From positions 1-27,817 of IMG/VR virus record IMGVR_UViG_3300023198_000081: DNA of 27,817 nt, one strand, 5' to 3'. The position numbers and the translations under genes were made by a program. The notes beneath the pieces are model-generated. The model saw only the letters and a program-made list of their open reading frames with translations, ran no database searches and was not told the origin of the DNA. This DNA is from a virus. Shown piece after piece: positions 2,513-26,310 of this stretch (positions are counted from its first letter, which is position 1; every line of letters starts with the position of its first letter).

Positions 2513-4465
2513 TTATTTATTTATAAATCCTTTGTTAGGCATATCTGCAGGCCTTACTGCCCATTCAGTTTCCTTATTAGGTACTGGCTTAAATCCTCTC
2601 CTCCTAGCCTCAGTAGTACCTATAATATCATTATTTTTACTAGCTCTCTCTCCTTTTTTCTGTACAAAAATAACTCTGAGCCATTTATGTTGGCACGCTC
2701 CTCCGCCCTTATAAAATTTATGTAACTCATTAGTACTAAGCTCTTTACCATGACAATTATTAAGCCAGATAGAGTAAGTATTAGCTCCTCCTTTACCCCA
2801 TCCTGGATTAACTGCCATTCTACTCATCTTTAATATATCAGATTTTCTATATACTAGCCCTGAGTTAGCTTTACCTACCATAAGCCTACAAAATTCTCTC
2901 TCTGGGCTTTGGCTACCGCTATATCTATATCTTACTCTAAATTTATTACCCTTTTCAGTAGTCTGCTTACTAGTACCATCCTGGTTACTTGGCTTATTAG
3001 GAGTAGGGCTACCATCTTTAACCGCTAATTCAGTTTTATTATTTAGCTGAGCCTCATAATCATCCTCCTCAGTTTCTCCATCAGTATCCTCTATAGCTAA
3101 TACATCATAATCCTTTAGTAAATCCTCCTCATACTCTCCTAATCCCTCTAAAAGGCTATCTAGCTTATCTAAGCTAATATCTTTATTAAGTGAGGTATTA
3201 GCATCAACTACCTCCTCATCACTCTCTAAAGGCTCTAAATTAAGCTCCTGGCGTATTTCTGAAGTAGTCATAACTTTCTCTAATATCTCAGTACCAAATT
3301 TATTAGCAAATGGAGTTAAATCTTTTATCTTAAAAGGTACATTAATATCATTAATAGCAAAAATCTTACTAAATGTTTTTACTAATATATCCTGGTAAGG
3401 CTGGATTACACTCCTACTATATAACTCATAAGCCTCTATTATCTCATTTTTACCTCCTAACTGGCCTGGAGTTTTTACTCCATGTAAAGATGGATTTACT
3501 ACTCTGTGGCCAATCATTAAATTTTGTATTACTAACTCATTTAGGGCTAGGTATTGCTGAGGTGCATCTGATAAAGCTAAATTTTGTATATCTGGAGTAT
3601 TTACCCCCTCATCAGTAAAGGTTAAAATCATTTTTTTACCTCCTACTCCAGTCATTTTACGAGTTATAGCGTTCTCTATTATTTGCTGCTCCTCCTCAGT
3701 AGGCTGGCCTGAGTTAAAATTTATCCAGGTAGTAGGGCTAAAGCCTCCAGCTATGTTATTATAATGATACTCAGACACTAAGCTATCAGTTAGTATCCAG
3801 TTTGTAGAGGATGAGTAACTTGGAGAGCCGTATAAATCTAGCCCTGGAGTATAATCTCTTACATATAATAGCTGATTAGTAGCACTCCTATCATAAGTAT
3901 TAAAGGCAGCTATAGGAGTAGGAGTATTTTCTTTGCGCCTAGTATTACCCCAGTCAGCACTAATCCAGTACTCCTCTACTACTCCATTACTATTAGGTAC
4001 TCCTATCCTTATTTTTTCTACTGGTACATGAGTTACAGATACTACACTCCTTTTATCCTTAGAATAAATTATATTAAGCGCTATAGCTCCCTGGAGGTAT
4101 AAATCTTTAGCTGCTTTACCTAGTAACTCCTCTATACTTTCCTTAGAGTTTATATTTTTTAGTAGTAAATTTAGCTTACTAGTAGCCTCTATATCTCCAT
4201 TAGGCTCTATTAGTATCCCTTTCCCTGCTATCATAGTACTAGCGCTATCAGTAATAGCCCTATGAGTAGCTGAGTTATTATACATAGAAATTAAAAACTG
4301 AGGATAGAGATTTTTATAAGGAGCATCTATACCATAATTAATCCAGCCATCTCCATTTGCCTCATATGCTTTAGGAGTAATAACCTGGTTTAAATATACC
4401 TCTCTTAAAGGAGATACATAAGGAGAGTTATTAGTAATTTTTTTATTTTTTTTAGCTTTAGCCAT
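2513..4465 (-). CDS. Portal protein with C-terminal extension
   Basis: A 650-residue portal protein, the dodecameric ring through which DNA is packaged. Residues 1-420 resemble siphovirus portals: an N-terminal basic arm, YPQFLISMYNNSATHRAITD around residues 53-72, LYLQGAIALNIIY, a central region with glycine- and tyrosine-rich loops, and SRSVIQPYQDILVKTFSKIF in the C-terminal helical part. Residues about 420-505 are acidic and low in complexity, probably a flexible linker. Residues about 507-620 form a separate domain with conserved-looking blocks (EFCRLM, VYRKSDI, YKGGGACQHKWLRV) that I have seen at the ends of portal or minor head proteins of Bacteroidetes phages; its function is not known to me. 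Total length is larger than most portals (about 400-520) because of this extension. The gene sits downstream of the capsid genes, far from terminase. Confidence 0.8.
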   Translation of the reverse strand: MAKAKKNKKITNNSPYVSPLREVYLNQVITPKAYEANGDGWINYGIDAPYKNLYPQFLISMYNNSATHRAITDSASTMIAGKGILIEPNGDIEATSKLNLLLKNINSKESIEELLGKAAKDLYLQGAIALNIIYSKDKRSVVSVTHVPVEKIRIGVPNSNGVVEEYWISADWGNTRRKENTPTPIAAFNTYDRSATNQLLYVRDYTPGLDLYGSPSYSSSTNWILTDSLVSEYHYNNIAGGFSPTTWINFNSGQPTEEEQQIIENAITRKMTGVGGKKMILTFTDEGVNTPDIQNLALSDAPQQYLALNELVIQNLMIGHRVVNPSLHGVKTPGQLGGKNEIIEAYELYSRSVIQPYQDILVKTFSKIFAINDINVPFKIKDLTPFANKFGTEILEKVMTTSEIRQELNLEPLESDEEVVDANTSLNKDISLDKLDSLLEGLGEYEEDLLKDYDVLAIEDTDGETEEDDYEAQLNNKTELAVKDGSPTPNKPSNQDGTSKQTTEKGNKFRVRYRYSGSQSPEREFCRLMVGKANSGLVYRKSDILKMSRMAVNPGWGKGGANTYSIWLNNCHGKELSTNELHKFYKGGGACQHKWLRVIFVQKKGERASKNNDIIGTTEARRRGFKPVPNKETEWAVRPADMPNKGFINK

Positions 4466-4479
4466 GATTTTTTATTTAA

Positions 4480-5295
4480 TTAGTCTGGTACATATATAAA
4501 ATTATTAGGATTACCATCTGGCTGCTCTTTATAAGTTACCTCACTATCTGCATTATAAATTAAAGCCTTACCGCTCTCCACTATTTTACCTACTACTGCA
4601 TCATTTATATCTAAATTAGTTATGCTATCCTGCTTATATATCTCATAGCTATAAAATCCAGTATCTTTTAATAAAGCCTCCTGGTTTAATCCATTAGCAG
4701 TACCAGTAGTAATTACTGTAATAGGATAACTTACAGTATTAGTACCTGGAGTAATTATTACACTAGTATCTGGTATCTGTAAAAGAGTAGTACTCTCTTT
4801 AGTAAAATCATTAGTAATATTAATAAGCCAGCTAAAAGGGTTTCCTATTATTCTTTGAAATGATACACTAGTTAAAGTTATCGATGTACCATTATCTCCC
4901 CTAAAAATTACACTATCATTTGTACCTCCTCTAGTATAATCAAATGTATGAGTACCTACAGTACCATCTAAAATTGTATAACCTAATCCAGAGTAAAATG
5001 ATAATTGAGTAGTACCTATATTTTCAGAAACTACATAAGTAACTCTATAACTTAAACCATCTCCAGTTATATTAGACTGGGTTAATCTATTAAGTCCATA
5101 TATTACATCTATTTTAGCACTACCTAAATCAAATGTAACACTACCATCTGGATTACTCCAATTAACTCCTAAAGGAAAATCAAGAAATAAAGGATTAAGT
5201 ACTAAATTACTACCTATACTAGTACCAATATCATATCCTCTATCTAATAGATTAGAATAAACTGTATTAGTTATATCCTGCTTTAAATATAGCAC
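4480..5295 (-). CDS. Virion structural protein with inserted carbohydrate-binding-like module
   Basis: A 271-residue protein starting at a GTG whose first G is also the last base of the upstream TAG (TAGTG). The N-terminal strand (residues 1-19) and residues 152-271 together look like a small structural protein common in Bacteroidetes phages: WLINITNDFTKEST, then GFYSYEIYKQDSITNLD and an ALIYNADSEVTYKEQ ending. Between them, residues about 22-149 look like a beta-sandwich module of the CBM4/9 type: NLVLNPLF, a tryptophan, then SYRVTYVVSENIG and a closing SVSFQRI. This segment resembles the modules of the 833-residue fibre protein (compare YKFSYDITENNIG and NISVKEV there). I infer a module inserted into a head-decoration or head-fibre type protein that would expose a sugar-binding face. 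The gene lies just upstream of the portal. Confidence 0.55.
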   Translation of the reverse strand: MLYLKQDITNTVYSNLLDRGYDIGTSIGSNLVLNPLFLDFPLGVNWSNPDGSVTFDLGSAKIDVIYGLNRLTQSNITGDGLSYRVTYVVSENIGTTQLSFYSGLGYTILDGTVGTHTFDYTRGGTNDSVIFRGDNGTSITLTSVSFQRIIGNPFSWLINITNDFTKESTTLLQIPDTSVIITPGTNTVSYPITVITTGTANGLNQEALLKDTGFYSYEIYKQDSITNLDINDAVVGKIVESGKALIYNADSEVTYKEQPDGNPNNFIYVPD

Positions 5296-5474
5296 TATTT
5301 TTTATCTTTTTTACTTACCTTTTTAGTATTATTTTCTACCTCCTCAAAATAATTAGAGTATCCTGCTTTTATTACTAACTTTATCTGCTCCTGGCTTAAA
5401 TATTGTAATACTATAGTTTTACCAGATGGCGCTATACTTACCTCCTTATACTCCTCCTTTAACTTATATCTCAT
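5295..5474 (-). CDS. 59-residue conserved-looking phage protein
   Basis: The ATG at 5474 opens a 59-codon frame beginning MRYKLKEEYKEVSIAPSGKT and ending in a lysine-rich tail. The TAG stop shares a base with the GTG start of the next gene, which is strong evidence that it is translated. The sequence is a short beta-like part (residues 1-25), a helix with LSQEQIKLVIKAGYSNYFE (about 26-44) and a disordered basic tail. It is the first gene after a terminator and a TATATTTATA box and so begins the portal operon. I do not recognise a function. Confidence 0.62.
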   Translation of the reverse strand: MRYKLKEEYKEVSIAPSGKTIVLQYLSQEQIKLVIKAGYSNYFEEVENNTKKVSKKDKK

Positions 5475-5588: not shown

Positions 5589-6122
5589 CTAGTAAGCAGG
5601 GCTTACAGTTAATCCAGTTACATTATCCCATGGAGTAGTAGTATATGCTCCACAGTTACGCATAGGCTCTCTCTCCTGGCTCATTATTGTTAAGTCATAA
5701 CCATAAGTATCCCCTAGGGCAGTACCAGTAGCAGCAGTACCAGCAGTTAGCTCAGCGCCTAATACCTCTCCCATAGCCCATTGGTTATTATTATTATCTA
5801 AAATAAAACAAACCATTCTAGTCTGAGCTATTAATTTTAACTCATCCCTCATAGCGTTATCTAATCTATGTAGTTTTATAGTTAAAGTATCCTCATAGAA
5901 TACAGTACCATTTTCAGTACTAATAGTTATTCCCTCTGAAAAACTACCAGTAGATTTTGGTAAATCGTATCTATAAGCAGTAGCTGCAGTAACTGCAGAT
6001 AATACAGTACCAGTATAAGTAGGAGCATAATCTGTTAAAGGTAGTAATAAGATAGAGCGAATACCCCCTACGCTATCTTTACAGTCCAATAATCTTCCAG
6101 CAGTCAAATCACAAATAGCCAT
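5589..6122 (-). CDS. Probable major tail tube protein
   Basis: A 177-residue protein that opens AICDLTAGRLLDCKDSVGGI and contains NGTVFYEDTLTIKLHRLD (about residues 71-88), a central LIAQTRMVCFILDNNNNQWAMGE and a C-terminal GTALGDTYGYDLTIMSQER. This LTAGR-DCKDSVGG type is frequent in Bacteroidetes siphophages and I take it for the tail tube subunit, which stacks in rings around the tape measure. The evidence is pattern recall and size; a head decoration protein is the alternative because it lies directly after the major capsid gene. A strong terminator follows it, and a hairpin separates it from the capsid gene, as expected for highly expressed structural genes. Confidence 0.55.
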   Translation of the reverse strand: MAICDLTAGRLLDCKDSVGGIRSILLLPLTDYAPTYTGTVLSAVTAATAYRYDLPKSTGSFSEGITISTENGTVFYEDTLTIKLHRLDNAMRDELKLIAQTRMVCFILDNNNNQWAMGEVLGAELTAGTAATGTALGDTYGYDLTIMSQEREPMRNCGAYTTTPWDNVTGLTVSPAY

Positions 6123-8671: not shown

Positions 8672-10417
8672 TTATAGTTTACTCCTCCTCCTAATTTTTG
8701 CTAATTTTGCCTGGCTATCACTCATGCTATCAGTAAGTACATAAGCCTTAATAGGAGCAGTAGATAAGCCAGCTATACTATCTCCAGTATCCTCAGTAGT
8801 AGCTCCTCCTCTGGAAAATCCTACTCCTCCTCCTGCTACATTCATATTACTTAAAGCGCCTCTAAACATCTTAGCAGATTTAGAGTTTATAACTACCTCT
8901 CCTCTGGATAATCTAGCATTTACACTATCACTAGTACCATTACCATAGCCTCCTACTATACCTCCTCTGGCCATTTTAGGTATCTCTGTTGCATTAATAG
9001 CATCTACCTGGCGCTGCCCTGCTAAAATAGCTATACCTGCCGCTATAGGCGCTAATACTTGCCCTACTACTGGTATGCCTATCATAGAGTTAAATGCACC
9101 CTGCGCACCTATAAAGGTATTAATCCTACTCTCTGCTATTTTTGTAGCTTTCCATGCATCACTCCCCTCATTTTGTAAATCTGCTACTCCTCCTAGCATA
9201 GAGCCTAAACTAGCTAAATCTCCAGTATTTAATGCTCTCTCCTTATCTGAGGTTACTTTATTCTGCTCCTGCTTTTTCTTATTATATTTCTTATTTATCT
9301 CTGCTTTAAGGCTTTCAGCATGCTCAGTATCTGCTACTCCTGCTAGCGCTCTCTCCCTATCAAATTCTAGCTGCATATTAGCACGCTCTAAAGCATCCTC
9401 AGTAAATGCTACTGCATTTTCTTGTTGGATTAATAGTAATCTCTCTCCCTCAGATAATAATAAAGCCTCTTTATCTGCTAATAATTTCTCATCTATTGCT
9501 AACTGCTTTTCTGCAGCGGCCTCTTTAGCAGCTATCTCAGCATCTATCTCAGCCTGCCTCTCTGCAGCATTAGCCTTTTCTTTATCTCTGGTAGATTGCT
9601 TTAAACCATTTAAAAAATTCTGTAAACCTATCTGCTTAGCAGTACTCTCCTCTTTTATAGCTGCTAACTCTATCTGCAAATCAGCCTCAGCATCTAAATC
9701 CTCTGCCATGCTCTCTCCTAAAGAATTCTCCTCCTGCTTAATCCTTAATGCCTCCTCAGCTATAGATATACGCTCTGCCATTAATGATTGCTCTTTAGCA
9801 AATGCTTTTTCTGCAGCCTCTGTACGCTCTTTATCTGATTTAGTTATATCCTCAGCTATTATTTTTAATCCCTCTATCTCTGCCTTATTCTCTGCAGTCC
9901 TTACTCTTAAATCTCTCTGAGCATCTGTAAGAGAATTAAAGGCTTTTTTAAGGTTTATAGCAGCATTAGCCTCTGCTTGTATCTCATCAGTTATACCAGA
10001 TAAAGCTCCTTTTACATCCTCTGCAGCTCCTTTAAAATCTCCAGAGAATACTTTAGCAATAGCAGAGCCTACTGAGCTTATTCTATCAGTAATAACTGCT
10101 ACTGCAGCACCTATACCAGCAAAAGCAACCTCTAAAGCCTCAGCTCCTGCCTTAGTATTTTTAAACCATGTAGCTAGCGCTCCAAATGCTAACAATAAAA
10201 CACCGATACCAGTACTAGCTATACCTGCAGTAATAGAGCTAAATAATACTTTACTAGTAGCTTTTACTGATACCATAGCTTTTTTAACTCCTCCCATAGC
10301 CATACTAAGTAAAGTAGTCTGCTTAGCTGCATCTTTAGAGCCATCTCCTACCTTTTTTATATCCTTACCAGCTTTACTAGCCTCTACTAATACCTCTAAT
10401 ATAACCTTTTCAACCAT
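8672..10417 (-). CDS. Tail tape measure protein
   Basis: A 581-residue protein that sets tail length and is injected with the DNA. It has a short basic N-terminus, alanine/glycine-rich hydrophobic segments around residues 55-85 (ITAGIASTGIGVLLLAFGAL) and 95-130, then a long coiled coil from about 150 to 390 rich in A, E and K, a second glycine/alanine hydrophobic part around 435-470 (GAFNSMIGIPVVGQVLAPIA) and a flexible C-terminus ending RRRSKL. Length at about 1.5 A per residue suggests a tail near 87 nm at most. The opposite strand has a 281-codon shadow frame (9075-9920), an effect of the repetitive alanine-glutamate coding. It follows the fibre gene and precedes the head genes, not the chaperone gene as usual. 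Confidence 0.85.
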   Translation of the reverse strand: MVEKVILEVLVEASKAGKDIKKVGDGSKDAAKQTTLLSMAMGGVKKAMVSVKATSKVLFSSITAGIASTGIGVLLLAFGALATWFKNTKAGAEALEVAFAGIGAAVAVITDRISSVGSAIAKVFSGDFKGAAEDVKGALSGITDEIQAEANAAINLKKAFNSLTDAQRDLRVRTAENKAEIEGLKIIAEDITKSDKERTEAAEKAFAKEQSLMAERISIAEEALRIKQEENSLGESMAEDLDAEADLQIELAAIKEESTAKQIGLQNFLNGLKQSTRDKEKANAAERQAEIDAEIAAKEAAAEKQLAIDEKLLADKEALLLSEGERLLLIQQENAVAFTEDALERANMQLEFDRERALAGVADTEHAESLKAEINKKYNKKKQEQNKVTSDKERALNTGDLASLGSMLGGVADLQNEGSDAWKATKIAESRINTFIGAQGAFNSMIGIPVVGQVLAPIAAGIAILAGQRQVDAINATEIPKMARGGIVGGYGNGTSDSVNARLSRGEVVINSKSAKMFRGALSNMNVAGGGVGFSRGGATTEDTGDSIAGLSTAPIKAYVLTDSMSDSQAKLAKIRRRSKL

Positions 10418-10545
10418 GATTTTTTATTTAATTTATTACTATTTAATCTCTTATCTTTAATATTTTCAATATCCTTAATTACTAAACTCATATAGCTTAG
10501 ATTTAAAAGCATATTTTTTTTAACTATCTTAAATCTATCTATCAT
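10396..10545 (-). CDS. 49-residue basic protein upstream of tape measure
   Basis: The ATG at 10545 overlaps the TGA of the fibre gene as ATGA, and the frame runs 49 codons to a TAG at 10396-10398, overlapping the start of the tape measure by 22 bases. The sequence begins MIDRFKIVKKNMLLNLSYMS and is rich in lysine and asparagine, probably helical. The overlaps at both ends and the otherwise empty gap argue for a real gene. The function is unknown; a small tail assembly factor would fit the place. Confidence 0.5.
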   Translation of the reverse strand: MIDRFKIVKKNMLLNLSYMSLVIKDIENIKDKRLNSNKLNKKSWLKRLY

Positions 10546-13043
10546 AATGTTACTCCAGTCCTAATCTCTGTAAAGGTTATATTACTAGCCCACTCTATAA
10601 TAGTATCTGCATGGCCTCTAACTCTCATTGCAAAATTAGTACCACTAACTATACCAGTAGGCTGCCAGTTAGTAGTATGGCCGCTATGTTTAATTACATC
10701 TCTCTCTCTGGATATACTTAATACTCCTGATTTATTAATTATAACTCCTCTCTCTACCCAGCTACCAAAATCTCCTACTACTCCACCTCCTGACGTATCA
10801 GTACCTCCTACTCTAACGGCTAATACGTCTGCGTGAAAATACATAGCAGTATTATCAGGAATAGCAAATAAGCTATCAGTTACTCCATTTAAAAAGCTAG
10901 ACTTATTACTACCATCTGTAGACTGTAAGCTATAAATTAAATTGGTACTCTGCCTAGGAGCTAAATAAGGTAGTACCTCTTTTACGGATACATTATCTAC
11001 TGAGCCATTAAAAATATTAGAACGAAGATAAACTCTGTTATTTGAACTTGGATTAGTTACATTAACTATAACTGTATGTGTTCCATCATAGGATGGAGAG
11101 TTTGCAGTTACATAGCCCCCCATACCTAAAGCTAAAGTACCCGAAACATAATTAGAAACAGTAAAAGTAATACTAAAAGTTTTACCTAAAGTTGATAATC
11201 CGCTAATTTCCTGGAATAAACTATTGTAAGGGTTTAATCCTGCTGAATTTGCTTGATAACCTCCTAAAAGAGAGCTACCTATACTCCAATCTGCACCTGC
11301 TGAATTCCATTTCCAATCCTGCCCTACCTCTTTTACTGAGATGTTAGATATAGTAACATCTGTACCCCCTGAGTATCTTCTAGCTATACTTAAAGTAGTA
11401 TTATCTGCCTCAAAATATTTAACATGAGAGCCTAAAGTACTATCCATAGCAGTAACTATAGCAGAATTTAATTTTAATGCTCCTATATTATTTTCAGTTA
11501 TATCATAACTAAATTTATATTGTTTACCAATAACCAAAGAAGAATAGCTAGTTTGAAGTACCCCCGCTACTGGAGTATGTTGTATCCTAGCTCCTAGGCT
11601 AGTTAATTCTGAGCCATCATTAAATATCCAATACTGCCCTACTTCTTTTACTGATACATCCTTAATATAAATTTTTTGGTTTGCTCCAGCAGTTTCTCCA
11701 TATTTTCTATGTATAAATAAATCATTATTACCAGTAGCTTTATAGTAAAAAGTAAAATCCTTATAAGAAGTAGTTAAACTAACATCTCCAATATTATTAA
11801 TAGTAGCTGCTCCGCTACTTTCTAATATTTCAGCATTAAAAATTGAAGTAGATTTCATACTCAATACTATTTTGTATTGAACACCAGTAGTAAATATATC
11901 CTGCTGATATATACCTACATTACTATTACTACTATCTATATTTAAAATAGCATCATTCTGAAAAGATACAGTAGATGAGCCTGATTTATAAATATCCCAA
12001 TTTTGAGCAACTTCTGTTAATGATACATTTTGTAAATAAAAACTCTCTCCTATTTCCTGAGTTACTCTAGGGTATACATCAATTGACTGCCCAGTAATAC
12101 TAGTACATGTAAAAAATAAATCAATAGTTTGAGATATACCAGCCTCAGTAGGATAATTACCTCCTGCCTGCGTATTAGAGCTATTACTTTCTGATATTCT
12201 TACAGATAAATCAGTACCATCTGAGGTAATAAATGTAGCTTTAAATCTATAGTTTTTATCTATCTCTAAATCACTAGATACATCCTGCTTAACTCTTTGC
12301 TGCCAGTAGATAGTCTGCTTTTCTATTACATCATTTCTAAAGCCATCAGCAATAGCCGTTAATCTCCTTTTACCAGTACTAGGGTTTACATTCCAATCAG
12401 TAAACTGAACACCGCCATCTAAATTACTATCTGTAGCATCTTGGAAATCTTCAAAATTACCATTTTCTACTAGCTCTACTCCTGGAGTAAAATCTCCATT
12501 ATTTACTAGCTCTGCTCCTATCTCACTAAAATCTCCATTAAGTATCTCCTCTGCTCCTATCTCATCAAAATCTCCATTAGTAACTAGCTCATCTCCTAAG
12601 CGACTTATACCAGCCTCAGGAGGATTACCCCCTAGCACTATAGAGTTAGTAGCAGTAGCCTCTGCTCTAGCGCCTGAGATGCTAGTATTACTAACTAAAT
12701 CAGTTACTGTATTATTATCTCCAGATATTACATTACTATAATTATTACTAGTAAGAATATGGCTAGCTCCAGCTATTAAATTATCTCTAGTATTCCTACC
12801 TATAGTATTAGATGCTCTAGCTATTGATAAATTCTGTGTAGCGCTAGGGCTATTAAATACTAATGGATTATTTGCTATATAGCATTTACTATCTGATTTA
12901 TTAAATACAAATCCATAAGCCTCACACTCATCCAGAGTAGGTAAAACCTCTACTAGTACCTCTCCTACATACTCCTCATAAATAACCTGGCTTAATCTGT
13001 TTATATTTTTAGGCCTTACAGTATATCCGATTATAAAATTCAT
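10542..13043 (-). CDS. Modular tail fibre / receptor-binding protein candidate
   Basis: An 833-residue multidomain protein. Residues 1-60 are an attachment part with TLDECEAYGFVFNKSDSKCY. Residues about 66-140 form short repeats with N and G turns (RNTRDNLIAGAS, NVISGDNNTV, ATATNSIVLGG), probably a trimeric beta-roll or beta-helix. Residues 151-197 hold four tandem copies of an E-[LI]-x-x-NG-[DN]-F motif. Then follow four CBM4/9-like beta-sandwich modules, ending near residues 345, 468, 574 and 690 with SLTEV or SVKEV. Residues about 695-833 form a C-terminal domain (GGGVVGDFGSWVERGVI, TIIEWASNITFTEI) of a type seen at the ends of Bacteroidetes phage fibres. Carbohydrate-binding modules suggest adhesion to surface polysaccharide. 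It is the third large gene of the tail-tip group. Confidence 0.65.
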   Translation of the reverse strand: MNFIIGYTVRPKNINRLSQVIYEEYVGEVLVEVLPTLDECEAYGFVFNKSDSKCYIANNPLVFNSPSATQNLSIARASNTIGRNTRDNLIAGASHILTSNNYSNVISGDNNTVTDLVSNTSISGARAEATATNSIVLGGNPPEAGISRLGDELVTNGDFDEIGAEEILNGDFSEIGAELVNNGDFTPGVELVENGNFEDFQDATDSNLDGGVQFTDWNVNPSTGKRRLTAIADGFRNDVIEKQTIYWQQRVKQDVSSDLEIDKNYRFKATFITSDGTDLSVRISESNSSNTQAGGNYPTEAGISQTIDLFFTCTSITGQSIDVYPRVTQEIGESFYLQNVSLTEVAQNWDIYKSGSSTVSFQNDAILNIDSSNSNVGIYQQDIFTTGVQYKIVLSMKSTSIFNAEILESSGAATINNIGDVSLTTSYKDFTFYYKATGNNDLFIHRKYGETAGANQKIYIKDVSVKEVGQYWIFNDGSELTSLGARIQHTPVAGVLQTSYSSLVIGKQYKFSYDITENNIGALKLNSAIVTAMDSTLGSHVKYFEADNTTLSIARRYSGGTDVTISNISVKEVGQDWKWNSAGADWSIGSSLLGGYQANSAGLNPYNSLFQEISGLSTLGKTFSITFTVSNYVSGTLALGMGGYVTANSPSYDGTHTVIVNVTNPSSNNRVYLRSNIFNGSVDNVSVKEVLPYLAPRQSTNLIYSLQSTDGSNKSSFLNGVTDSLFAIPDNTAMYFHADVLAVRVGGTDTSGGGVVGDFGSWVERGVIINKSGVLSISRERDVIKHSGHTTNWQPTGIVSGTNFAMRVRGHADTIIEWASNITFTEIRTGVTL
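12446..12593 (-). repeat. Four tandem NG(D/N)F motif units inside the fibre gene
   Basis: Codons 151-199 encode DELVTNGDFDEIGA, EEILNGDFSEIGA, ELVNNGDFTPGV and ELVENGNFEDF one after another, units of 11-14 residues. The DNA repeats as well: the plus strand repeats AAATCTCCATTA and TCTGCTCCTATCTCA between 12496 and 12577. In normal CBM4/9 modules this motif opens a domain of about 120 residues; here only the last copy leads into one. It looks like slippage or repeated recombination at the module boundary. Confidence 0.65.
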
Positions 13044-23134: not shown

Positions 23135-23503
23135 TTACTCATCTGTTAATACTACTATACTAGGCTCATTACTCCAGTACTTTTCTGCAGTTAGGCTATA
23201 TACATAACTATCCTCATCTAGTAGAGCATCTAAAAAAGCCTTACATAAATTATCTATATCTGGCTTAGCTTTATGAGGCTTACCTAACATCTGCTCCCTT
23301 TTCTTTTTACTCCATGATTTAGCCATAGGTATATAAAATATTAGGCTTACCTTATCTCCTGGTATATATTGTAGCTTTATAGCCTGGCGCTCTAGCTCAT
23401 TACAAAAATCCCAGTATTTAAGTACTATAGGCCTCTTTTTCCATCTATCCGCTCTAGTCATCCTAGGTTTAGGGCAGGGCTTTATATTAAACTCTATCCT
23501 CAT
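23135..23503 (-). CDS. RusA-like Holliday junction resolvase
   Basis: An endonuclease of the RusA family that resolves branched DNA. It opens with a beta strand and the K-P-R motif (IKPCPKPRMT), then the conserved block HKAKPDIDNLCKAFLDAL with acidic residues of the active site (D-x-D and the D of LDAL), DEDSYVYSLTAEKYW and a final strand. This is complete for the family (about 120 residues). I choose the ATG at 23503, the ninth codon of the longest frame, because it lies just past the helicase stop; the longer start at 23527 would overlap the helicase gene by 23 bases. The place in a replication module fits. Confidence 0.85.
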   Translation of the reverse strand: MRIEFNIKPCPKPRMTRADRWKKRPIVLKYWDFCNELERQAIKLQYIPGDKVSLIFYIPMAKSWSKKKREQMLGKPHKAKPDIDNLCKAFLDALLDEDSYVYSLTAEKYWSNEPSIVVLTDE

Positions 23504-23504
23504 C

Positions 23505-24800
23505 TTAAAATGGTTTAAAATCCTCATTAGTAAATTTAGAGGTAGCTCCTCTAAAATCTAGTACTGCAGTACCTAAACTACCTGCTCTATTCTTAGCTAC
23601 TATAATCTCTGTAGTAGTATCATTATTTTTACTATAGTAACCATCTCTATATATAAATAATACTTTATTAGCATCCTGCTCTATAGCACCGCTCTCCCTT
23701 AAATCTGATAGCATAGGCCTTTTATTACCTCTACTCTCTACTGCTCTGGATAACTGAGATAAGCAGATAATAGGTATATCTAACTCCTTAGCTAGGGCTT
23801 TTAATTGCCTAGATATAAAAGATATTTGCTGCTCTCTATTTTGCTGCTTATTAGATTTATCTCCTCCAGATAATAGCTGCATATAATCTATAATAATCAT
23901 ATCTATTTTAGTCTTATGGTTTAGCTTTTTAGCTACTGATTTTATACCGAATAGCTCAGAGGTTTCTGCATCTACATTAAGTAGGCCAGAGTTTATTATA
24001 TCTGAGGTATCTGCATATACTCCTTTATACTCCTCCTCAGTTAGCTTACCTCTATGTATTCTATCTCCCTCAATTCCAGATAGATTAGATACTAATTTTA
24101 ATCCTAGCTCAGTAGCAGTCATCTCTACAGAGTACATTAGCACCCTCTTTTGCTGCCTAACTGCCTCCAGCATAAAGTTAAGAGCTAAGGTAGTTTTACC
24201 CATTCCAGGCCTAGCTGCTAATACTATTAACTCTCCTTTACCCCATCCATTAGTAAGCCTATCTAAATCATTAAAGCCAGTAGATATACCAGTACATCCT
24301 CCAGCATTAGTACTAGCCTCCTCTATGGCCTTAAAAGTATCTTTAAATAGTGTAGTAGTATTAACTATAGTTTCTTTAGGAGCAGCACCTACCTTATCTA
24401 AGTAAGTACTAACCTCAGCCGTTAAATCAAATATATCAGTATCTAAATTAGCTGCCTTTTGCATTTTGGATATTCCAGCTAGCATATCTCTCCTCATCTC
24501 TAGCTCCTTTAATACTCTACAGTAATCAGGTAATACCATCTCATCACAAAACTCTCCAGAGATATTTGAGATAGTAATTAAATCTACTTTACCTTTTAGC
24601 TCTGCAGCTACTAGGCTCATATCTGGTATCTTACTAGCATTATATAACTCTATACATGTTACATATATTAGCCTATTATCATTAGTATAAAAGCTACTAG
24701 GCTGGAGTACGCTAGCTATTATATGTATAGCATCTGAGGTATTCATTAAAGCGGCTAGCACTTTAATCTCTAAATTATTATCATTAGGTATATCTATCAT
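23505..24800 (-). CDS. dnaB: DnaB-type replicative DNA helicase
   Basis: A 431-residue hexameric helicase. The N-terminal domain (residues about 1-130) is the helical primase-interaction part of DnaB. The RecA-like domain has Walker A LAARPGMGKTT (195-204), YSVEMTATELGLKLV after it, the Walker B IDMIIIDYMQLL (299-310) and the DnaB motifs ICLSQLSRAVE and PMLSDLRESGAIEQDA (about 362-377), then a typical YRDGYY. The family is usually 430-460 long, so it is complete. It is coupled by ATGA to the helix-turn-helix gene upstream. It unwinds the phage DNA at the fork; loading may depend on that upstream protein. No primase is seen, so host primase is likely used. Confidence 0.95.
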   Translation of the reverse strand: MIDIPNDNNLEIKVLAALMNTSDAIHIIASVLQPSSFYTNDNRLIYVTCIELYNASKIPDMSLVAAELKGKVDLITISNISGEFCDEMVLPDYCRVLKELEMRRDMLAGISKMQKAANLDTDIFDLTAEVSTYLDKVGAAPKETIVNTTTLFKDTFKAIEEASTNAGGCTGISTGFNDLDRLTNGWGKGELIVLAARPGMGKTTLALNFMLEAVRQQKRVLMYSVEMTATELGLKLVSNLSGIEGDRIHRGKLTEEEYKGVYADTSDIINSGLLNVDAETSELFGIKSVAKKLNHKTKIDMIIIDYMQLLSGGDKSNKQQNREQQISFISRQLKALAKELDIPIICLSQLSRAVESRGNKRPMLSDLRESGAIEQDANKVLFIYRDGYYSKNNDTTTEIIVAKNRAGSLGTAVLDFRGATSKFTNEDFKPF

Positions 24801-25225: not shown

Positions 25226-25742
25226 AAGCTAGGCTATTTATATGCTCTACACTAAAAGAGTAATTAAATGCCTTAAAAGCCTCTTTAAGTACCTTAATAG
25301 TAGCCTCTAGCTCTCTGGTATATATATACTCCTCTATATTACCTATCTTAAAGCTAAGCATAAAAGGAGCGGCCTCCTGGTTTACTATACCTTTATCTTT
25401 AAATACTTTTAGCATATCCTCCTTAGTCATAGCCATATTATCTATACCTAGATAACTCTTTTTTAGGTTATCATATAACTCCTTATACTCAGCCCAGTAC
25501 TTATAATTATCCTTATGCTTAGCCTCATAGTAGTAAAAGCTAGTCCTATCTCTATGTATATGCTTACTTAACTCATCATAAGTAAATCCTAAATCCCTCA
25601 TTAAAAAATTAGCGCTAGCTACTCTACCTAATACTAATACTCTAGCTCTATTACCTCCATTAATATCCTTAGCTGGTACATCTAATAGGGCTGCAGTTAA
25701 ATCAGTTATATCCTGGAGTATCTTTTTATTATTCTTAATCAT
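25215..25742 (-). CDS. DnaA domain IV-like DNA-binding protein
   Basis: A 175-residue protein. Residues about 8-80 follow the C-terminal DNA-binding domain of DnaA: DLTAALLDVPAKDINGGNRA, then RVLVLGRVASANFLMRDLGF, TYDELSKHIHRDRTSFYYYE and AKHKDNYKY. In DnaA the same order is V-x-x-x-x-I-x-x-x-x-R, R-x-x-A-x-Y-L, and G-R-D-H-T-T-V-x-x-A; here HRDRTSFYYYEA replaces that last signature. The AAA+ ATPase domain is absent. The second half is helical and unknown. The gene overlaps both neighbours (11 and 8 bases), between the annealing protein and the replication-type gene. I infer an origin-binding protein; I did not see obvious DnaA boxes. Confidence 0.65.
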   Translation of the reverse strand: MIKNNKKILQDITDLTAALLDVPAKDINGGNRARVLVLGRVASANFLMRDLGFTYDELSKHIHRDRTSFYYYEAKHKDNYKYWAEYKELYDNLKKSYLGIDNMAMTKEDMLKVFKDKGIVNQEAAPFMLSFKIGNIEEYIYTRELEATIKVLKEAFKAFNYSFSVEHINSLAYES

Positions 25743-26310
25743 TTTTATTATTACTTTGGTTAATCATTCTAGTTAAAGTACTCTCCTGCTTTTTAGTCAT
25801 TTTATAATTATGCATTTTTTTAGATACTGCAGAGCCTTTACCAGTATTAATAAACTCTAGCATAATATTATAAATATCTACTGTCATTATAGATTTAGGC
25901 TTAGCTACTGGCTCATTTACCTTATTACTATCAGCATCTTTAGTATCATCTAGTAAAAATAAATTACCTAGAGCATACTTTTTAGCATAGGAGCTACTAC
26001 TACCAAAACTCTGCGCTATATCCATCCCTTTACGCTCTGGATTTACTCCAGCCTGAGCCTCTACAAATATAGACTTTTCGCCATCTGATATAGTAACCTT
26101 AGAGGTTAATACTAAATATCCAGCTATCTCCTGGGTAGTTTCTGTAATAGTAAGGTAGCAGTTATATTTTTTTAGTAAAGGCTTTAGAGCCTCTAATATA
26201 TCCTCTGCAGAGCGATATTTATACTTACCAAAGTTATTAAATTGATTTTTAGGTGCTTTTAGCTCATTCTGGATATTTACTAGATAATCCATTTTAGTTA
26301 ATTTTGTCAT
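25735..26310 (-). CDS. erf: ERF-family single-strand annealing recombinase
   Basis: A 191-residue protein for homologous recombination by annealing single strands. The ERF core is clear: LVNIQNELKAPKNQFNNFGK, then YKYRSAEDILEALKPLLKKY (about residues 10-50), VTISDGEKSIFVEAQAGV and the signature KGMDIAQSFGSSSSYAKKYA followed by LGNLFLLDDTKDAD (about residues 93-127). The C-terminal third is basic and less ordered. It is five bases from the gene upstream and overlaps the gene downstream by eight bases. With the resolvase it supplies phage-coded recombination. Confidence 0.88.
   Translation of the reverse strand: MTKLTKMDYLVNIQNELKAPKNQFNNFGKYKYRSAEDILEALKPLLKKYNCYLTITETTQEIAGYLVLTSKVTISDGEKSIFVEAQAGVNPERKGMDIAQSFGSSSSYAKKYALGNLFLLDDTKDADSNKVNEPVAKPKSIMTVDIYNIMLEFINTGKGSAVSKKMHNYKMTKKQESTLTRMINQSNNKND

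Follow-up and report, generated by a model that had tools for sequence, protein, structure and literature searches.

A small protein encoded next to the portal gene carries an insert

The window analyzed here is a whole stretch of 27,817 nucleotides, positions 1 to 27,817 of the virus record IMGVR_UViG_3300023198_000081, and the window features given below in the form start..end lie on its minus strand. A split match to a core HMM within a 271-aa ORF with a GTG start (4480..5295) defines a small protein with an inserted module, which we call the pre-portal protein. The stop of a 59-aa ORF (5295..5474) and the start of the 271-aa ORF share one base, and the next gene downstream encodes the portal protein (2513..4465; PHROG portal families, best E 6.6e-45).

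The core HMM, built from six insert-free relatives of 149-153 aa, matched residues 1-21 (5233..5295; HMM positions 1-24) and residues 151-270 (4486..4845; HMM positions 32-150) of the 271-aa protein and nothing between them. Because the insert-free profile matches in these two pieces only, residues 22-150 (4846..5232) are an insert, standing in place of ~7 profile positions of the insert-free family; matches of a module HMM place the carbohydrate-binding module (CBM)-like module proper at residues 45-148 (4852..5163). The original prediction, made without database searches, had described a small protein interrupted by ~128 residues at 22-149; the split match bears this out, with an insert of ~129 residues and bounds right to about one residue. 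It had also proposed a search for relatives without the insert, and these were found as ~150-aa proteins at the same place before the portal. The module of the pre-portal protein arose as an insertion, a conclusion about which we have practically no doubt.

None of 10 core relatives had a PHROG match at E 0.01. The core gave one match among PDB sequences (E 1.8) and eight scattered Pfam families, the best being DUF7743 (E 1.4e-4) in one of 15 members. With the weak model of the window protein, Foldseek returned no match at E 0.001 or better; the absence of a fold from the VIA lists is no proof that the fold itself is absent. When 50,697 named-phage records were searched by tblastn, the window protein had no match at E ≤ 10, and the first module of the two-module relative L006 had none at E ≤ 0.001. 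The closest named phages were the Nonlabens phages P12024S and P12024L (portal 28%, another protein 26%), and because these nearest named relatives, though distant, are Nonlabens phages, our guess from sequence is a flavobacterial host. Kinship of the pre-portal protein with P12024S_05 of Nonlabens phage P12024S was considered and was not detected by hhalign (probability 0.28%).

The insert belongs to a module family that also fills the fibre

An independent module HMM (221 rows, with the window clade left out) scored residues 45-147 of the pre-portal protein at 34.0 bits (E 1.1e-10). The best of 1000 shuffles of the insert reached 9.2 bits, and the likeness between insert and fibre is therefore beyond chance. 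In the 833-aa fibre-like ORF (10542..13043), which carries a module array, the same HMM scored 41.6 bits at residues 347-468 (11640..12005), 59.7 bits at residues 470-573 (11325..11636), the own-fibre module most like the insert, and 63.6 bits at residues 576-690 (module at about 575-690, 10974..11321), while a fourth stretch was weak at 9.5 bits. Among the 47 window ORFs, none besides the pre-portal protein and the fibre scored above 4.2 bits. These two proteins also match each other directly, at 29% identity (E 3.1e-7). The proposal that insert and fibre modules are of one type is thus upheld by an HMM that finds both without help from the window clade.

The fibre array, delimited at residues 140-690 (10974..12626) by the module HMM and by comparison with relatives, also contains four 36-39-nt repeats (repeat family D1, 12452..12604) that code for ELVxNGDF-type start motifs without module bodies, as well as, at intervals of 315-369 bp, four 22-nt repeats located where modules end. 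The array is itself an insertion, a point absent from the original prediction: its place is spanned without an array in 28 of 30 fibre loci, the array being present in L018 (on the L006 contig) and L043 being too short. The middle fibre modules have been replaced between the window and L006, and window positions 10997-12009 match the L006 fibre DNA only in a 33-bp and a 31-bp patch at the module joint. In locus L016, the fibre gene (1431-2687) has a single module in its C-terminal domain, at a place other than that of the window's array.

In the loci gathered, the module family occurs in 96 distinct ORFs, fragments among them, with up to seven matched stretches per ORF. Viral contigs yielded at least 457 relatives, whereas in a genome collection 2 of 55 pattern matches were relatives, a contrast that is indicative only, as alignments and patterns differed. 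A crude regular-expression sort of 93 carriers gave 37 LamG-type proteins, three pre-portal proteins, three window-type fibres, and 50 unsorted ones, which include a group of ~900-aa tail proteins, most of them matched weakly and only once. Proteins of ~900 aa (MSVQLIVYPQ...) are encoded upstream of the fibre in most of the loci L019-L047, their mostly weak single match falling at about residues 85-185; this stretch is perhaps a distant version of the module.

Close relatives carry no, one or two modules

Relatives were gathered by scans of viral contigs with the 271-aa protein, the portal, and aligned relatives. Insert-free relatives occupy the same pre-portal place in L007, L008/L009/L012 (one sequence), L010, L011, L013, L016/L050 (one contig), and L048. 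The portals of L007, L008, L010, L011, L013, and L048 are 86.2-91.9% identical to that of the window, the comparison spanning 371 residues for L011 and 291 for L013. Two-module proteins were found in L001 (391 aa) and L006 (387 aa), whose portals are closer still to the window's, at 99.2% identity over 388 residues and 98.8%, respectively. The DNA flanking the first module, which the window lacks, is ~95.5% identical between window and L006 for 4,325 bp on one side and 4,055 bp on the other. L001 and L006 are 95.9% identical over a 5,369-bp DNA alignment, yet each has a different family member as its first module, the two being 42% identical in the alignment used. In the first-module part of the gene, the stretches of at least 20 bases common to L001 and L006 measure 129, 27, 80, and 20 bp and correspond to the flanks and the module edges. 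Among 49 distinct ORFs that each stand immediately before a portal gene as its nearest upstream ORF, four had modules (window, L001, L002 on the L006 contig, and L100), a count that predates the scan that added L142 and L163 and that is no population frequency, because the loci were partly fetched by the module.

The pre-portal protein of L100 belongs to a second family and carries two modules after its N-terminal ~22 residues. Homology between the two pre-portal families was not detected by hhalign (probability 1.25%, E 0.042). The second family forms a series of its own, with no module in L163, one in L142, and two in L100, whose portals are pairwise 96.3, 96.5, and 98.0% identical; the small protein is more divergent than the portal (67-80% identity in its C-terminal part). 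In both families, the extra module is placed ahead of the resident one, and in L001 and L100 it opens with a second start motif, GSE(E/L)ITNGDFATDS(N/D)W. Other members of the second family have no module (L165 and L166), one module (L144), or one module and a long C-terminal extension (L140, L141, and L143). The proteins of L140 (1556-3598), L141 (3442-5391), L143 (4001-6034), and L165 (1244-2911) are 555-680 aa long, and because their long C-terminal extensions contain D-rich repeats, the protein of this second family apparently serves as a platform to which other domains can be added.

The module family is predicted to have a CBM-type fold

The 387-aa protein of L006 was modelled from 36 sequences with a mean pLDDT of 71.6, with ~90 in the first module, 70-92 in much of the core, and block values of 35-71 in the second, window-type module. 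The modelled first module superposes on solved CBMs as a CBM4/16/22-type β-sandwich. Its best match was a porphyran-binding CBM (8xmz; Z 11.6, 2.6 Å over 114 residues), with further matches to a hyaluronan-binding module (Z 10.6), CBM16 (2zew; Z 10.5), CBM4 (1gu3; Z 9.8), CBM22 (Z 9.8), and CBM families 6 and 35 (Z 9.4-10.2). The model of the window protein, built without foreign module rows, was poor (mean pLDDT 54.9), and on it the module region reached a best Z of 7.5 with a CBM35 chain, below the caution level of 8; its weak top matches, with Z up to 7.5, were mainly CBM-bearing chains and insecticidal-protein domains. By sequence, the kinship of this module with the family is clear. A Pfam search at E ≤ 1 linked no CBM family, CBM_4_9 included, to the window protein, to the fibre, or to any of the ten modules scanned. 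The Pfam scan of these ten modules gave only three unrelated weak families at E ≤ 1, BACON not being among them. The original prediction of a CBM4/9-like type therefore holds in part: the first module of L006 has the β-sandwich fold in common with CBM families 4, 16, 22, 6, and 35 and the porphyran CBM 8xmz in its model (Z 9.8-11.6, with 9.4-10.2 for families 6 and 35), but unlike those families it has no Pfam CBM match at E ≤ 1.

On these models, the module family very probably has a CBM-type fold. Because the best fold matches of the first L006 module are CBMs, carbohydrate binding is the likeliest function of the modules, which we predict with moderate confidence. Judged by the position of its gene before the portal, the pre-portal protein would be a surface-exposed component of the virion, and we give about even chances to a location at the head or neck.

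The module could instead serve as a spacer or a variable surface decoration without carbohydrate binding, in which case module number would alter reach, stability, or the antigenic or receptor surface. A fold reveals no ligand, and no CBM family of Pfam matches at E ≤ 1; moreover, two folds with no known sugar ligand, an Eph ligand-binding domain and meprin, also matched the first L006 module at Z 9.5-9.8, within ~2 of the best CBM. However, carbohydrate-binding modules make up the majority of the top single-domain matches, and the arrays fill long fibre-like proteins, which are usually host-binding, and we consider the spacer reading unlikely, if the most serious of the alternatives.

Modules appear to be exchanged between phages as cassettes

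Carbohydrate binding thus remains the preferred reading of what the module does; exchange of modules between genes can be followed at the DNA level. The first module of L006 is 88% identical over 330 bp, edge to edge, to a module in a LamG-type protein of L072, whereas identity in the flanks, 66% and 62%, is close to the 64% expected on average at random. Likewise, the first module of L001 shares 72-77% DNA identity with modules in proteins of L058-L063. Among the 93 carrier genes, we found 23 module-confined homology islands, five of them at ≥85% identity (99.2, 95.7 twice, 93.9, and 88.2%) and four of these independent, the two 95.7% islands being counted against two near-identical carriers. 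Flank identity was mostly at the random level (random mean 0.64, 95th percentile 0.71), with one flank above the 95th percentile in six of the 23 islands, the 93.9% case included. In a set of 297 DNA matches of ≥200 bp between carriers, 22% ended no more than 30 bp from the end of a module, against a null of 7%, and 20% had their start close to that of a module, against a null of 12%; a large share of the others lie in conserved segments outside the modules. Because close relatives differ in having no, one, or two modules and near-same modules occur in unrelated proteins, these phages appear to swap modules like cassettes, a conclusion that we hold with high confidence.

The modules have conserved edges, starting with ...NGDFATDS[DN]W and ending with IDNVSVKEVG. 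If joints arise at these edges through DNA homology, the edges would be expected to share codons beyond what the amino acids require. We compared 161 modules from 68 loci in 10,972 pairs below 40% identity, with serine codon boxes kept separate; the columns compared are not mutually independent. At the C edge, the codon ratio was 1.23, versus 1.07 in the conserved columns of the core (P 0.0045; the edge exceeded the core in 100 of 100 half-samples), and at the N edge codon conservation was not significant (1.12 versus 1.06, P 0.20). The modest conservation at the C edge is consistent with recombination at the edges but is no proof of it. The window has genes for an ERF-family single-strand annealing protein (25735..26310; PF04404, E 3e-31) and a RusA-family Holliday junction resolvase (23135..23527; PF05866, E 2.3e-16). 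Rad52-like phage recombinases, one Erf among them, are described as making mosaics between diverged sequences (PMC3945230), and the phage's own ERF protein is a plausible agent of module exchange.

The modules might also spread mainly through easily recombining edges, a near-neutral or selfish expansion that permissive loops would tolerate. The occurrence of inserts in several carriers unrelated to one another, the leftover start-motif repeats without bodies, C-edge codon conservation, and presence or absence among close relatives would all suit an expansion of this kind, but open frames are kept in the compared genes and pre-portal insertion is infrequent among the 49 distinct ORFs, and we regard it as improbable.

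Movement within the genome between the fibre and the pre-portal protein, as the original prediction suggested, found no support in the comparison of modules. The nearest relative of the first L006 module is the one in L072, with the modules of the window and L006 fibres ranking 92nd to 189th of 190 and those of L006's own fibre 103rd, 137th, and 149th. For the first module of L001, whose contig lacks its fibre and which was therefore ranked only against the window and L006 fibres, these fibre modules rank 84th to 160th of 191. Copying from the own fibre would account for the same family occurring in both genes, and one own-fibre module does rank 6th of 190 for the window module (third without itself and two orthologues). 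Their identity is only ~30%, however, and we think such copying very improbable; on sequence grounds, this rank does not settle the source of the window's own module. Finally, although metagenome contigs with repeated modules are prone to misjoins and the L100 sequence contains ambiguous residues, assembly chimeras are scarcely credible as the origin of the one- and two-module forms, which come from several contigs of different metagenomes, have open frames and joints at module edges, and recur in a second family.

A model for module display beside the portal

The explanation that we favor, with fair but not high confidence in the whole, combines a permissive loop, cassettes from other phages, and adhesive display. 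The pre-portal protein would be a virion surface protein with a permissive loop just past its first strand, into which a phage-type CBM-fold module may have entered when sequence homology drove recombination with genes of other phages that bear modules, rather than by copying from the own fibre. Whole modules would be gained, lost, and replaced as cassettes with joints at their conserved edges, the ERF annealing protein of the phage being a candidate agent. Displayed near the head-tail junction, the modules would most likely attach to polysaccharide on the host cell or in its surroundings, and this binding could help adsorption. More tentatively, and with less than even odds in our judgment, the largely phage-borne CBM-fold family may be a mobile adhesin cassette whose edges act as recombination handles, hopping from one phage to another among virion proteins that are not related (two separate pre-portal families, fibres, and tail proteins of the LamG type) and giving portal-side proteins rapidly replaceable glycan-binding domains.

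Lactococcal 936 siphophages are described as having CBM-decorated virions, with CBMs on the neck passage structure, the major tail protein, and evolved Dit, and two of their CBMs bound host cells (Hayes et al. 2019, PMC6669499). The likeness lies in CBM-type modules on structural proteins beyond the receptor-binding protein, the portal-region collar included, and in variants among relatives (PMC6669499), the placement here being the one suggested by gene position. As described there, the neck modules of the 936 phages sit at the C terminus of collar proteins ~500-900 aa long whose N terminus is BppU-like (PMC6669499). By this description, our case differs in that the module lies inside a ~150-aa pre-portal protein (271 aa with the insert) of other phages and in that its number varies between none, one, and two, with traceable module-confined DNA exchange with other genes. 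Binding was observed for the two 936 CBMs (PMC6669499), whereas here it is predicted from the fold.

Tandemly repeated BACON domains in gut phages, crAss-like ones among them (de Jonge et al. 2019, PMC6949934), are likewise described as presumed carbohydrate-binding arrays in tail-associated proteins, with largely horizontal transfer of separate domains in two lineages. The module studied here differs in being another domain by Pfam scan, in its pre-portal insertion, and in DNA-level transfer with borders at module edges. Protein mosaicism in phages is already established in general: recent fragment exchange has been described as strongest in tail fibres, spikes, and some other classes (PMC10684548), and the exchange here is of this same kind, without such a pre-portal case among the examples consulted. 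The one collection of papers searched yielded neither a description of this module family nor an account of a pre-portal protein whose number of modules varies.

In two protein families, then, a likely adhesion domain has been gained, lost, and replaced beside a portal that stays 96-99% identical. If the modules do bind glycans at the head or neck, attachment could be retuned away from the tail tip, and the natural alleles with no, one, or two modules are ready-made test material for such retuning. The sequence-level joints can also serve the study of how phages shuffle parts of proteins and not whole genes.

Two side observations concern other genes. The ~177-aa gene that follows a 289-aa gene is present in two tandem copies in L007 (1657-2730) and L008 (1841-2917) and in one copy in the window (5589-6122). 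In the gene for a tape-measure-like protein (window 8672-10417), DNA similarity to L006 stops between 9514 and 9960, and because of this break the gene seems to have been partly replaced between close relatives.
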